From the NCBI GenBank assembly GCA_019744975.1, contig JAIETP010000014.1:1-64000 (forward strand): a stretch of DNA of 64,000 nucleotides. Reading direction: 5' to 3'. Shown piece after piece: positions 42,401-47,384 of the stretch. This stretch comes from Burkholderiales bacterium (GTDB lineage Bacteria > Pseudomonadota > Gammaproteobacteria > Burkholderiales > SG8-41). The notes below the pieces were generated by a model, which was given only the letters and a program-made list of their open reading frames with translations, was not told the DNA's origin and ran no database searches. Positions within the stretch are counted from its first letter, which is position 1; each line of letters starts with the position of its first letter. The translations under genes were made by a program, and so were the position numbers.

Positions 42401-44275
42401 ATGTCTGAACGGTCGTCCGACCAGAGGCAAGTCCAGCAGGACGGCCTGCGGAAAACCGGGGCTTCCTGTCCGGCAGCCGCTATTGTCCTAGCCTGCAGCG
42501 TCATGCTGCTCGCCGCTTGCGCGCCGTTCCAGACCAAAGTGACGCCTTCCGAGGGGCACATCACCACGCCGGCAGCCGCAAAAAAACCTGACTCAGCGAT
42601 TCCGCAGACCGCCCGCGTACCCACGCTGGTGCCTCCGCCCACGGCACAGATCAAACCGCAGACCTACAGCGTAGTCGTGCATGAAGTGCCGGTGAAGGAA
42701 CTGCTGCTGGCGCTCGCCCGCGACACCAAGCAGAACATCGACATCCACCCCGGCCTCAACGGCCTGGTCAGCCTGAACGCCATCAACGAGACGCTGCCGG
42801 CGATCCTTGAGCGCCTGACCAAACAGGTCAACCTGCGTTACCGGACCGAAGGCAACACCATCATCGTCTCACCCGATACGGCATACGTAAAAACCTATCG
42901 CGTCAACTACGTCAACATGACGCGTGACACCACATCGAACATCGGCGTCTCTGGTGAAATCTCCACCACATCCGCTGGTGGCACCGGTGGCGCCGCCGGC
43001 GCTACCACCTCGGGCTCCAACACTTCGGTCCGCTCGACCTCGAGCAACAATTTCTGGGATGAACTGCGCAACAACATCCGCGCCATCCTGAACTCGACCC
43101 GCCTGCAGACGCTGAGCGCCGATGCGCGCAGCGAGCGCCTTGCCTTGGTCAAACAGGAACAGGACAACCGAGTACGGCAAATCGAGGCCGCGAGCAAGGC
43201 CCTCACCGGTGCCGCGCCCCTGGCTTCCACCGTGATCAGCGCCTCCAGCACCAACCCGCAGCAGGCTTCTCTGGTCCCGGATGACGTCGTGGTCAACGCT
43301 GTCACCGGTACAGTCACCATCAATGCCACGGACAACCAGCACCAGTTGATCCAGCGCCATCTCGACAGTGTGACCTCAGCAATCCAGCGCCAGGTGCTGA
43401 TCGAAGCCACCATCGTCGAAGTCATCCTGTCGGACGCCTTCCAGGCCGGCATCGACTGGAGCCGGCTGCCGATCAGCGGCGGGCTGTCGATCACTCAGGC
43501 GCTGCTGGGAGGCTTCAACGCTGCTGCCACAGGCTCCGGTGCAGCCGCGGGCAATGCCCTGACAGTTGCATACACCAACCCGACGACCAATGTCGGCAAC
43601 ATCAGCGGCACCGTGAAACTGCTCGAGACATTCGGCGACTCGCGTGTACTGTCCAGCCCGAAGCTGATGGCGATGAACAACCAGACCGCGCTGCTCAAGG
43701 TCGTCGACAACCTGGTCTATTTCGAGATCAAGGCCGACACCACCACGCCGACCACCGGCCCCACCCTGACCACGTTCAACACCACCGCCAAAAGCGTGTC
43801 CGTCGGCGTGGTGATGGGCGTCACACCGCAGATCAACGAGGACGGCCGTGTACTGCTGAACGTGCGGCCCACGGTCACCCGGCTGAACTCGCAGCAGCCC
43901 TTCGTCAACGATCCCAATCCGAGCCTGTGCGACGCAACCCGCACCAACTGCATTGCCAACCCGGTCCCGCAGATCCAGGTCCGCGAAATGGAGTCGGTAT
44001 TGCAGGTCGTCAGCGGCCAGACAGTCATTCTCGGCGGTCTGATGCAGGATAACGCCAGCGTCGCTCGTGAGCAGATACCGGGCACCGACAGTCTGGGCGA
44101 ACCCCTGGCCAACCTGTTCCGCTTCCGCGACCAGCGCGCCAGAAAAAGCGAACTGGTGATCTTCCTGCGCCCGACCGTTGTATCCAATCCTTCGCTGGAC
44201 AGCGAAGAGCTGAAATTCTTCCAGCGTTTCCTGCCGCAACCCGAATCCGCTCCTGCGCCGCCCACTGCCCGATGA
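42401..44275 (+). CDS. MshL-like secretin lipoprotein
   Basis: A 624-residue outer-membrane secretin. The leader ends in lipobox LLAAC; an N-domain (about 85-165) precedes a Gly/Ser/Thr-rich insert (about 185-215), and the secretin core (about 320-605) has VLIEATIVEVILSDAFQAGIDWS, RVLSSPKLMAMNNQTALLKV and VILGGLMQDN. It forms the pore through which the pilus exits. Start ATG follows AAGGGGAGTAAG. It overlaps mshN by ATGA. Confidence 0.9.
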   Translation: MSERSSDQRQVQQDGLRKTGASCPAAAIVLACSVMLLAACAPFQTKVTPSEGHITTPAAAKKPDSAIPQTARVPTLVPPPTAQIKPQTYSVVVHEVPVKELLLALARDTKQNIDIHPGLNGLVSLNAINETLPAILERLTKQVNLRYRTEGNTIIVSPDTAYVKTYRVNYVNMTRDTTSNIGVSGEISTTSAGGTGGAAGATTSGSNTSVRSTSSNNFWDELRNNIRAILNSTRLQTLSADARSERLALVKQEQDNRVRQIEAASKALTGAAPLASTVISASSTNPQQASLVPDDVVVNAVTGTVTINATDNQHQLIQRHLDSVTSAIQRQVLIEATIVEVILSDAFQAGIDWSRLPISGGLSITQALLGGFNAAATGSGAAAGNALTVAYTNPTTNVGNISGTVKLLETFGDSRVLSSPKLMAMNNQTALLKVVDNLVYFEIKADTTTPTTGPTLTTFNTTAKSVSVGVVMGVTPQINEDGRVLLNVRPTVTRLNSQQPFVNDPNPSLCDATRTNCIANPVPQIQVREMESVLQVVSGQTVILGGLMQDNASVAREQIPGTDSLGEPLANLFRFRDQRARKSELVIFLRPTVVSNPSLDSEELKFFQRFLPQPESAPAPPTAR

Positions 44276-45471
44276 GCCTGTTGATGAAGGCCTTGGAAAA
44301 GGCCGCCAAGGATCGTGGCGAAGCGCAGCTGCCGGCAACAGAAGCTGCTCCAACGGCACCAGCCGCCGCATCTCCGGCCATGGAATTGTCGCTAGAGCCG
44401 CTGCAGGCTGACGCGCCCGTGTCACCGCCACCTGAGCCCACGCCAGCGCCTGGTGCTGCTGCAAACAAACGCAACGACCGCACTCAGCAGGCGCATGCTG
44501 CGACTGTAATGCAGGCGAGTTCGCGCGCACCGGCAAGCACTGCTGGGCCGCGTATCCGTCCGGTGATGGCGCTCGGACTGCTGGCGGGGGTCGTGACGCT
44601 GGGCTTTGCAATTTACGTCTACCTGCAAATCACCAATCCCGGGATGTTCATCCGCCAGCCCGCAACCGCGGCGAAACCGCCGGCGCCACTGGGACAAACC
44701 CCCGCACCGAAACAAGCGCCGATTGCCACAGGTAGCGTAATCGCGCCTGCAGATGCTGTTGCGCAAAATCGCGCTTCTGAACAACCAGCGCAAACCGCGC
44801 GGGCGACGGCCCCTGCGCCCGAACCGGCGCGACAGGCTGGTGCCACGGAAGCGCCGCGCAACATCATTCAGGTCAGCGCAACTGCCGCCGAACCGCAACT
44901 CAACCCGCAACTGAGCCAGGCTTATTCCGCGCTGCAGTCGGGAAAACTCGACGCCGCGCGCCAGCTCTACAGCGACGCTGCGCGCAATGAGCCGCGCGAC
45001 ATCAATGCGCTGCTCGGCCTGGCGACCATTGCCATGCAGGAAGGCCGCACCGAGGACGCCAACAGGCTGTACTTAAACGTACTCAATCTTGAACCACGCA
45101 ACCCGTATGCGCAGGCAGGACTGATCGCGATGATGGGCCGTGCCGATCCGGTGGCCGCTGAATCCAGGCTCAGACAGCTGATCTCCCGCGATCCGCTGCC
45201 CTCGCTTTATTTCACACTCGGCAACCTGTACGGCGACCAGTCGCGATGGGCCGAAGCGCAGCAGGCTTATTTCCAGGCACATCAGCTGGAACCGGCCAAT
45301 CCCGATTACGCCTACAACCTTGCAGTCGGACTCGAACATGTCGGCCAGCCAAAACTGGCCGCCAACTTCTACCAGCGCGCGGTCGATCAGGCCAAAACCA
45401 CAGGCCGCATCGGCTTCAATCTGGCCCAGGCACAGGACCGCATCCGTCAACTCGCCGCGCAGCCGCAATAA
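44272..45471 (+). CDS. MshN-like TPR protein
   Basis: A 399-residue protein: cytoplasmic Ala/Pro-rich N-terminus, one membrane helix (about 98-118, PVMALGLLAGVVTLGFAIYVYLQI), a low-complexity linker, then TPR repeats (about 215-395; LSQAYSALQSGKLDAARQLY, INALLGLATIAMQEGRTEDA). Sequence order after the secretin and translational coupling (ATGA) match MshN of MSHA pilus loci, whose precise job is unclear but probably scaffolding. Confidence 0.8.
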   Translation: MSLLMKALEKAAKDRGEAQLPATEAAPTAPAAASPAMELSLEPLQADAPVSPPPEPTPAPGAAANKRNDRTQQAHAATVMQASSRAPASTAGPRIRPVMALGLLAGVVTLGFAIYVYLQITNPGMFIRQPATAAKPPAPLGQTPAPKQAPIATGSVIAPADAVAQNRASEQPAQTARATAPAPEPARQAGATEAPRNIIQVSATAAEPQLNPQLSQAYSALQSGKLDAARQLYSDAARNEPRDINALLGLATIAMQEGRTEDANRLYLNVLNLEPRNPYAQAGLIAMMGRADPVAAESRLRQLISRDPLPSLYFTLGNLYGDQSRWAEAQQAYFQAHQLEPANPDYAYNLAVGLEHVGQPKLAANFYQRAVDQAKTTGRIGFNLAQAQDRIRQLAAQPQ

Positions 45472-45479
45472 CGGGACCT

Positions 45480-45664
45480 AGTGTCCTGAGTCTGGAATTC
45501 GAAGCATAAATGGCGGGCCGAATGAAACAGTATATGAATTTTTTTGCATGCGCGGCGCGGCGCGAAGTGCGACGAGACAGGGTTGGGCACCCGTCGAGGA
45601 GCACGACAAAGCTGCGGCGTGCAGGCAAAGAAATTCTGCGAGCAATTTCAGACTCAGGACACTG
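45480..45664. mobile_element. MITE-like element with 20-bp terminal inverted repeats
   Basis: AGTGTCCTGAGTCTGGAATT (45480-45499) is matched by its reverse complement at 45645-45664 with one mismatch. The 185-bp interior has no gene and contains GGGTTGGGCACCC. I see no clear target duplication. The right end lies 10 bases before the mshE start codon, so the element now supplies the leader of that gene; the only upstream AGGA is in the terminal repeat, 14 bases from the ATG. Confidence 0.75.
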
Positions 45665-45674
45665 AGCTACCGCA

Positions 45675-47384
45675 ATGGCCGAACAACGGAAAAAACTGCG
45701 GCTGGGTGAACTGCTGGTGCAGCAGGGGCTGATCACCAAGGATCAGCTCGCGATCGTTCTCGCCGAACAGCGTAACAGCAACATCCCCCTAGGCCGCCTG
45801 CTGGTCAGACTCGGTTTCGTCACCGAAACCGCAATCCGCGACATCATGGCGCGCACCGTCGGCCAGGAATCGATCGACCTCGCCCAGGTCGTCGCCGACT
45901 CGGAAGCATTGAGCCTGGTACCCGAGGATTTCGCGCGGCGCAACCACGTGCTGCCGATCGCCTACGATCCCGCCGACCAGGTGCTGACCATCGCGACGAC
46001 AGAAATTTTCAACGTCGTCGCACTCGACCAGCTGCGCGCACTGCTGGGGCCCCAGGTGGAACTCAAGGCGCAGCTCGCCGCTGAGGCACAGCTCAGCGAC
46101 TATATCGACCTGTTCTACGGCCATGAACTGTCGGTCGACGGCATCCTCACCGAAATCGAAACCGGTGAAATCGACTACGAAAGCCTGCAGGCCGGCGGCG
46201 ACGACGAGTACACCCAGCCGATGGTGCGGCTGGTCAACGCCATCTTGGTTGATGCCGTCAAACGCGGGGCCTCCGACATCCATTTCGAGCCGGAATACGC
46301 GTTCATGCGTATCCGCTACCGCATCGACGGCGTGCTGGAAACCGTGCGCAGCCTGCACAAGACCTACATGCCCGGCATCACTGTGCGGGTCAAAGTGGTC
46401 AGCGACATGAACATCGCGGAGACCCGCGCCCCGCAGGACGGACGGCTGTCACTGACGTTGAACGGACGGCCGATTGATTTCCGCGTTTCCACCCAGCCAA
46501 CGATCTACGGCGAGAACATCGTGTTGCGCGTGCTGGACCGCGAAAAATCCATCGTCAATCTGGATCGCATGAACCTGCCCGCCGACACCATGACCAAGCT
46601 TGAGGTCATGCTGGCGCGGCCGGAAGGCATCCTCGTCGTCACCGGCCCCACCGGCAGCGGCAAAACCACCACGCTGTATTCGCTGCTGGCCCAGGTCAAT
46701 GACGAGACCGTCAACATCATGACGCTGGAAGACCCGGTCGAATACCCGCTGACCCTGATGCGCCAGACTTCGGTCAATGAAGTGGCGCGCATGGATTTCG
46801 CCAACGGTATTCGTTCAATCATGCGCCAGGACCCGGACATTATCCTGGTCGGCGAGGTGCGCGACCGCGAAACCGCGGAAATGGCCTTCCGCGCCGCAAT
46901 GACCGGTCACCAGGTGTTCACCACGCTGCACACCAACTCGGCGCTGGGCGCCTTCCCGCGGCTGCTCGACATCGGGATACAACCGGACATCATGGCCGGC
47001 AACATCATCGGCATCATTGCGCAACGCCTGGTGCGCCTGCTATGCATCCATTGCAAGGAAGCCTATGCGCCGTCCCAGGAAGAACGCGCACTGCTGGGCG
47101 TCGCTGCGGACTCCGCGTCCTTCCTCTACCGCCCGGTGGGCTGCAAACACTGCTCGAACAAGGGTTACCGCGGCCGCACCCCGATCATGGAACTGCTGGT
47201 GATGGATGCGGACATAGACGAACTGGTGGCGCGCCGCGCCACCGCCAAGGAACTGCGCGCCGAAGCCGTCTCCAAGGGTTTCCGCTCACTCGCCGAAGAA
47301 GGCATCGGCCGGGTGATTGACGGCAGCACCAGCCTCGCCGAAGTTGCACGCTCCGTCGACCTGACCGGAAGGCTGCGCCAATGA
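45675..47384 (+). CDS. MshE/GspE-like pilus assembly ATPase with c-di-GMP-binding N-domain
   Basis: A 569-residue hexameric ATPase. Tandem MshEN motifs open the protein: RLGELLVQQGLI...LAEQ (9-32) and, after five residues, PLGRLLVRLGFVTETAI (38-54); this arrangement binds cyclic-di-GMP in characterised MshE. Walker A GPTGSGKTTT (324-333), Asp box, Walker B DIILVGEVRD, His box, and a tetracysteine Zn site (C457, C460, C490, C493). It powers pilus extension, and its activity is probably gated by c-di-GMP. Confidence 0.92.
   Translation: MAEQRKKLRLGELLVQQGLITKDQLAIVLAEQRNSNIPLGRLLVRLGFVTETAIRDIMARTVGQESIDLAQVVADSEALSLVPEDFARRNHVLPIAYDPADQVLTIATTEIFNVVALDQLRALLGPQVELKAQLAAEAQLSDYIDLFYGHELSVDGILTEIETGEIDYESLQAGGDDEYTQPMVRLVNAILVDAVKRGASDIHFEPEYAFMRIRYRIDGVLETVRSLHKTYMPGITVRVKVVSDMNIAETRAPQDGRLSLTLNGRPIDFRVSTQPTIYGENIVLRVLDREKSIVNLDRMNLPADTMTKLEVMLARPEGILVVTGPTGSGKTTTLYSLLAQVNDETVNIMTLEDPVEYPLTLMRQTSVNEVARMDFANGIRSIMRQDPDIILVGEVRDRETAEMAFRAAMTGHQVFTTLHTNSALGAFPRLLDIGIQPDIMAGNIIGIIAQRLVRLLCIHCKEAYAPSQEERALLGVAADSASFLYRPVGCKHCSNKGYRGRTPIMELLVMDADIDELVARRATAKELRAEAVSKGFRSLAEEGIGRVIDGSTSLAEVARSVDLTGRLRQ

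Follow-up and report, generated by a model that had tools for sequence, protein, structure and literature searches.

A probable orphan IS630-type MITE in the mshN-mshE gap of a Burkholderiales bacterium

In the genome of this Burkholderiales bacterium, the mshN-like gene and mshE are separated by a palindromic sequence, and the question arises whether this sequence is a mobile element inserted in the msh operon or a conserved leader of mshE, and how it might influence the two genes. The locus lies in a window (i.e., the whole stretch of DNA that was analyzed) of 64,000 nucleotides, and its features are the following (window coordinates):

44272-45471, + strand: mshN-like gene (TPR protein), upstream of the element (ORF list, Pfam/NCBIfam)
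45478-45481, no strand: CTAG, left boundary, with the TA target duplication at 45479-45480 (sequence, flanks of relatives)
45480-45499, + strand: left terminal inverted repeat (TIR), whose first A is part of the TA target (TIR pattern, shuffle test)
45481-45662, + strand: 182-bp IS630-type MITE (paired TIRs, relatives elsewhere, empty sites in congeners)
45536-45636, + strand: inner hairpin, covarying stem (subfamily alignment, covariation, covariance model)
45560-45612, + strand: apical core GCGCGAAG...ACGACAAAGC, common to elements with other TIRs (covariance model, core pattern with control)
45644-45663, - strand: right TIR, whose outermost base is part of the target (TIR pattern, shuffle test)
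45663-45666, no strand: TGAG, right boundary, imperfect copy of the TA target (comparison with two empty sites)
45675-47384, + strand: mshE (T2SSE ATPase with MshEN domain), downstream of the element (ORF list, congener comparison, Pfam/NCBIfam)

The Pfam and NCBIfam models assigned to the MshE ATPase, besides the T2SSE and MshEN domains, a MshE-related c-di-GMP motif; a T2SSF protein is also encoded in the neighborhood, and the neighboring secretin is nearest to the MshL model, with a score slightly under that model's cut-off. The description of the operon as tightly coupled holds for mshL/mshN and several downstream gene pairs, which overlap by ATGA, but not for mshE and the next gene, which are 43 bp apart.

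The two TIRs, AGTGTCCTGAGTCTGGAATT (45480-45499, + strand) and AGTGTCCTGAGTCTGAAATT (45644-45663, - strand), are identical at 19 of 20 positions, exactly as the original prediction had it, and the TIR pattern has no match in shuffled windows. The element had been placed at 45480-45664 (185 bp); its existence is confirmed, even though the proposed end lies one base too far and the mobile unit corresponds to 45481-45662, i.e., 182 bp. In the same way, the 10-base gap from the mshE ATG is correct if counted from 45664, while the distance between the end of the TIR and the ATG is 11 bp. The sequence is indeed non-coding, since it lies between the stop of mshN (45471) and the start of mshE (45675) and contains no internal genes; thus, it is short, non-coding, and bounded by TIRs, as a MITE should be. 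On the left, the flank (TA, within CTAG) is preserved; on the right, it is TGA (TGAG). The corresponding empty sites of two congeners, CTAGCTACC in G020 and GAGCTACC in G018, are compatible with two histories of this right end, and on sequence grounds the target duplication is best regarded as imperfect.

In order to discriminate between a mobile element and a leader, the mshN-mshE junction was compared among the 15 congeners in which it is readable, whose MshE sequences share 90-98% identity. In all of them, the two genes are separated by just 15-27 bp, versus 203 bp in the window, so that these junctions represent empty sites; the one of G020, the nearest organism by MshE, is CGGACCCGGGCGCTACTAGCTACCGCG and contains CTAG. 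The TIR is absent from all 20 congeners scanned. Among more distant relatives, the mshN-mshE gap is also long in G029 (locus L144; 236 bp) and G023 (L142; 93 bp), in both cases without the element. The host genome itself (3.69 Mb, 99% complete) harbors a single copy, according to both BLAST and a TIR pattern search allowing up to three mismatches, and homologous elements are found at other sites in other genomes, some of which carry several copies (as an example, five in G455). Several copies per host are usual for MITEs but not strictly defining, and the mobility of the element is witnessed by the 15 empty junctions together with the relatives at other sites. No copies were found in a search of plasmids and phages.

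These data bear directly on the possibility that the sequence is a conserved regulatory leader of mshE, such as a riboswitch-like element or an attenuator, rather than mobile DNA. Its position immediately upstream of mshE and its high degree of structure, which covaries in the relatives, would fit such a leader; however, the sequence is missing from this junction in the 15 congeners, its relatives occupy unrelated, TA-flanked sites, and an Rfam search with the element and the wider core gave no credible match. A sequence conserved at this site and found nowhere else would have pointed to a regulatory region; since the congener junctions lack it and homologues occur elsewhere, this interpretation can be practically dismissed.

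When genomes were scanned, one for each species, the TIR pattern turned up in at least 117 stretches, which belong to Betaproteobacteria, Acidobacteria, Methylomirabilota, Streptomyces, and other groups. Among the matches listed, the distance between paired ends is about 100-320 bp in most cases, and 1134-1148 bp in a second group. Among 73 distinct short insertions in other genomes, TA is present on both sides of 46, and the arrangement CTA[element]TAG is found in 43; these flanks represent an IS630/Tc1-mariner type of TA duplication, which is imperfect in the window copy, at a CTAG target. The relatives of the 182-bp element are 73-82% identical to it over most of its length, and the lengths within this subfamily range from 181 to 193 bp. 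The long forms (1.13-1.15 kb) sharing the same ends encode proteins of 363-369 amino acids with HTH_32 and DDE_3 (PF13358) domains, and the one at L055 reaches 273 bits against the NCBIfam IS630 transposase model NF033545 (cut-off 100). These 1134-1148-bp forms, among which is L166, thus represent cognate autonomous elements, which share the ends of the MITE and encode a DDE transposase. L166, from a member of the same bacterial family (G425), is complete in size and has CTAG at either end, the second end being more divergent, and its transposase shares 61% protein identity with the Streptomyces one. Full-length IS630-family ISs with the same ends are also present in actinobacteria (L055:4644-5790, L079:4914-6060, L080:4242-5389, L088:1461-2595, and L011:432-1575), where the inverted repeat itself encodes the C-terminus of the transposase. 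The MITE-like nature initially proposed is therefore supported by the TIRs, the TA duplication, the CTAG target, and the cognate IS630-family IS.

Neither a DDE_3 protein nor an autonomous IS630 was found in the host genome, a draft of 44 contigs; since a matching transposase is lacking in this draft, as is a second copy, the window copy is considered an orphan MITE, of which a transposase in the host is not required. Two further observations concern the family as a whole. The first one is a 319-bp element of Cupriavidus necator (L057:1433-1751) in which the two ends and the final 98 codons of the IS630 transposase are retained, so that it looks like an intermediate between an IS and a MITE that arose by internal deletion. 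The second one is a palindromic element of 136-137 bp (139 with the target bases) with the same ends, present in many near-identical copies in the Acidimicrobiaceae MAG SB0673_bin_3 (loci L031, L039, L081, L082, L086, L102, and L120), which suggests recent activity outside Proteobacteria. A literature search with the TIR or core strings returned, among the matches listed, unrelated ones only; the data reported here document a widespread group of CTAG-targeting IS630 MITEs for which no relevant paper was found by its TIR string. The element is a further, unnamed MITE of the established IS630 type, whose identity as mobile DNA is genuine but ordinary.

The location of the element at a gene end might be taken as a sign of function, and the distribution of CTAG was analyzed in this respect. 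In the window, CTAG occurs 15 times versus 225 expected from base composition and 22 expected under a second-order Markov model. It often lies within a TAG stop codon, and in the loci examined it is enriched at TAG stops; depletion and enrichment together steer CTAG-targeting elements toward gene ends. An exact coincidence with the stop of an ORF (minimum length, 120 codons) was observed for 28 of 139 element sides (20%). The remaining CTAG sites of these loci show an equal rate (72/353, 20%), versus 5 of 2720 random positions. Functional selection is therefore unneeded in order to explain the position; the proximity to gene ends follows from the CTAG target and provides no evidence of function.

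Folded as RNA, the element has a predicted free energy of -92.9 kcal/mol (z = -9.2), and the members of the subfamily, folded individually, are alike. In the alignment of the 182-bp subfamily (A2; members of 181-193 bp), covariation was evaluated on 13 distinct sequences, in which one structure stays paired in 94.5% of the cells. Changes affecting both sides of a pair were 19, versus a mean of 9.7 in shuffled alignments, none of which (0/500) reached 19; when the partner was slid by 1-3 columns, just 2-6 such changes remained. Hence, the palindrome is maintained through sequence change. What maintains it may be selection acting at the RNA level, on a hairpin of the DNA, or on transposition itself, and the data are compatible with all three. 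Among the effects on mshE that had been suggested, i.e., a promoter, a structure, or a ribosome site, the structure is the one that fold prediction and covariation support.

As to the other two, neither a sigma-70-like promoter nor an intrinsic terminator was found in the region 45300-45800, so that a sigma-70 promoter is not supported, and the ribosome site is at most weak, consisting of a GAG (45664-45666) that precedes the ATG by 8 nt and does not belong to the element itself. It is known that IS and MITE insertions can be sources of promoters (PMC9208149), and the short distance from the mshE ATG, together with this GAG 8 nt upstream of it, might suggest that the MITE has been co-opted to drive mshE. 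Nevertheless, the lack of a sigma-70-like promoter, the position of the GAG outside the element, the fact that a single recent insertion is involved, and a CTAG target that alone explains insertions near gene ends render such a co-option improbable.

When the region 45400-45760 was folded, the element was predicted to close on itself as a separate arm, and its removal in silico left the flanking helices unchanged. The start region (-11 to +13) has a mean pairing of 0.39 in the presence of the element and of 0.34 in its absence; the only stretch gaining pairing is that from -20 to -1 (0.69 versus 0.32), as a result of the replacement of the old flank by the TIR. According to this model, the insertion may be tolerated because it loops out. 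It could also be mildly harmful, breaking the translational coupling between mshN and mshE and lowering mshE expression, given that the mshN stop and the mshE start are 203 nt apart versus 15-27 nt in the relatives, and that the stem covers positions -31 to -12; yet there is no terminator, mshE is intact and up to 98% identical to its counterparts in congeners, and the start region is predicted to be paired almost as before (0.39 versus 0.34), which makes a harmful effect rather unlikely, if less so than co-option. The likeliest effect would be mRNA processing in the stem of the element, which is a candidate target of RNase III if it behaves like the Correia elements, cleaved by this enzyme; for ERIC, RNase E effects are described (PMC10969869, PMC2229807).

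On the whole, the locus is very likely to harbor an orphan IS630/Tc1-mariner MITE, mobilized in trans into the mshN-mshE gap, that is predicted to loop out and to contain a possible RNase III site. The GTGTCCTGAGTC ends would have been recognized by a transposase of the IS630 family working in trans, and the 182-bp unit would have inserted at a TA, probably within CTAG, between mshN and mshE. The insertion, documented by the comparison with the sequenced congeners, would have occurred after the species split from them, and the orphan state might derive either from horizontal acquisition or from the loss of the partner transposase. In the msh mRNA, the element would fold as one closed arm, whose TIR stem would restore about the old distance between the mshN stop and the mshE start, and operon function would probably be kept; the long double-stranded stem, a likely RNase III-type site on the Correia analogy, could uncouple the mRNA levels of mshN and mshE. 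Counting against this scenario are the right target, which reads TGAG and not TAG, and the absence of both a transposase and a second copy from the host genome, although the latter is a draft of 44 contigs. The locus offers a natural test, with clean empty sites within the genus, of whether a closed hairpin between two co-transcribed genes alters their coupling.

The most interesting lead comes from the inner hairpin, and concerns what keeps its core while the ends change. A covariance model of this hairpin (R1) has matches in 24 of the 399 genomes of the order, several of which lie in palindromic elements whose ends differ from GTGTCCTGAGTC, namely GTGCTCCGACACA, AGGGCCTGTTCACAC, AGGCTCTGTTGACG, AGGGCGAATCGACATT, AGAGTCTATTTCAG, GGAAGCCCTGAACAAGTC, GGAACCTCTGATTAAGTCC, and AGAAACCTCAGTTG. 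The R1 scores of these other-end elements (40-58 bits) are by themselves no proof of homology, given that true members reach about 34-41 bits even on their reverse strands. Since palindromes alone can score on R1, an asymmetric core pattern with a reversed control was used: GCGCGAAG-N30..60-GCGACAAAGC gave 168 matches in 54 of the 399 genomes of the order, versus 12 for the reversed control. The matches mostly span 52-58 nt, and some genomes contain many copies (41 in G060); those lacking a stem are probably due to chance. The core carriers include G060, G199, and G229, as well as loci L243-L271. In the window copy, the second motif of the core is altered (CACGACAAAGC). To judge from these sequence patterns, one hairpin core sits in palindromic elements with many different ends. 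Tentatively, the inner hairpin might be a transferable structured module, made up of an asymmetric GCGCGAAG/GCGACAAAGC core and a variable stem-loop and associated with many TIRs (at least eight others), in which the hairpin and not the ends is conserved. Selection would act on such a module at the level of RNA or of folded single-stranded DNA, e.g., as a protein-binding or replication-linked hairpin.

Among the known systems, RUP of Streptococcus pneumoniae, a MITE of IS630-Spn1, is likewise short and non-coding, with IS630-like TIRs and TA insertion, and is thought to be moved in trans; it differs in TIRs, length, and host, and is present in many copies in its host, unlike the single orphan described here (PMC2229807). 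The Correia/NEMIS and ERIC elements are similar in being palindromes of 100-200 bp with TA ends and long stems that are co-transcribed with genes (PMC2229807, PMC10969869); however, their sequences are unrelated, and the RNase III or RNase E processing that is proposed here has been demonstrated for them. The Chunjie MITE of Geobacter uraniireducens, from its description as cited in PMC10969869, is a precedent for a MITE inside an operon. The Beta-proteobacterial repeat element (BRE; Hot et al. 2011), a GC-rich repeat of about 90 bp from Betaproteobacteria, recalls, as described, the inner hairpin core in size and range, although BREs are described as occurring in tandem (PMC3110155). Lastly, the REP/BIME sequences of RAYT transposases are short intergenic palindromes too, whereas the element of the mshN-mshE gap has long TIRs and the TA target duplication of a DDE transposase (PMC2817692).
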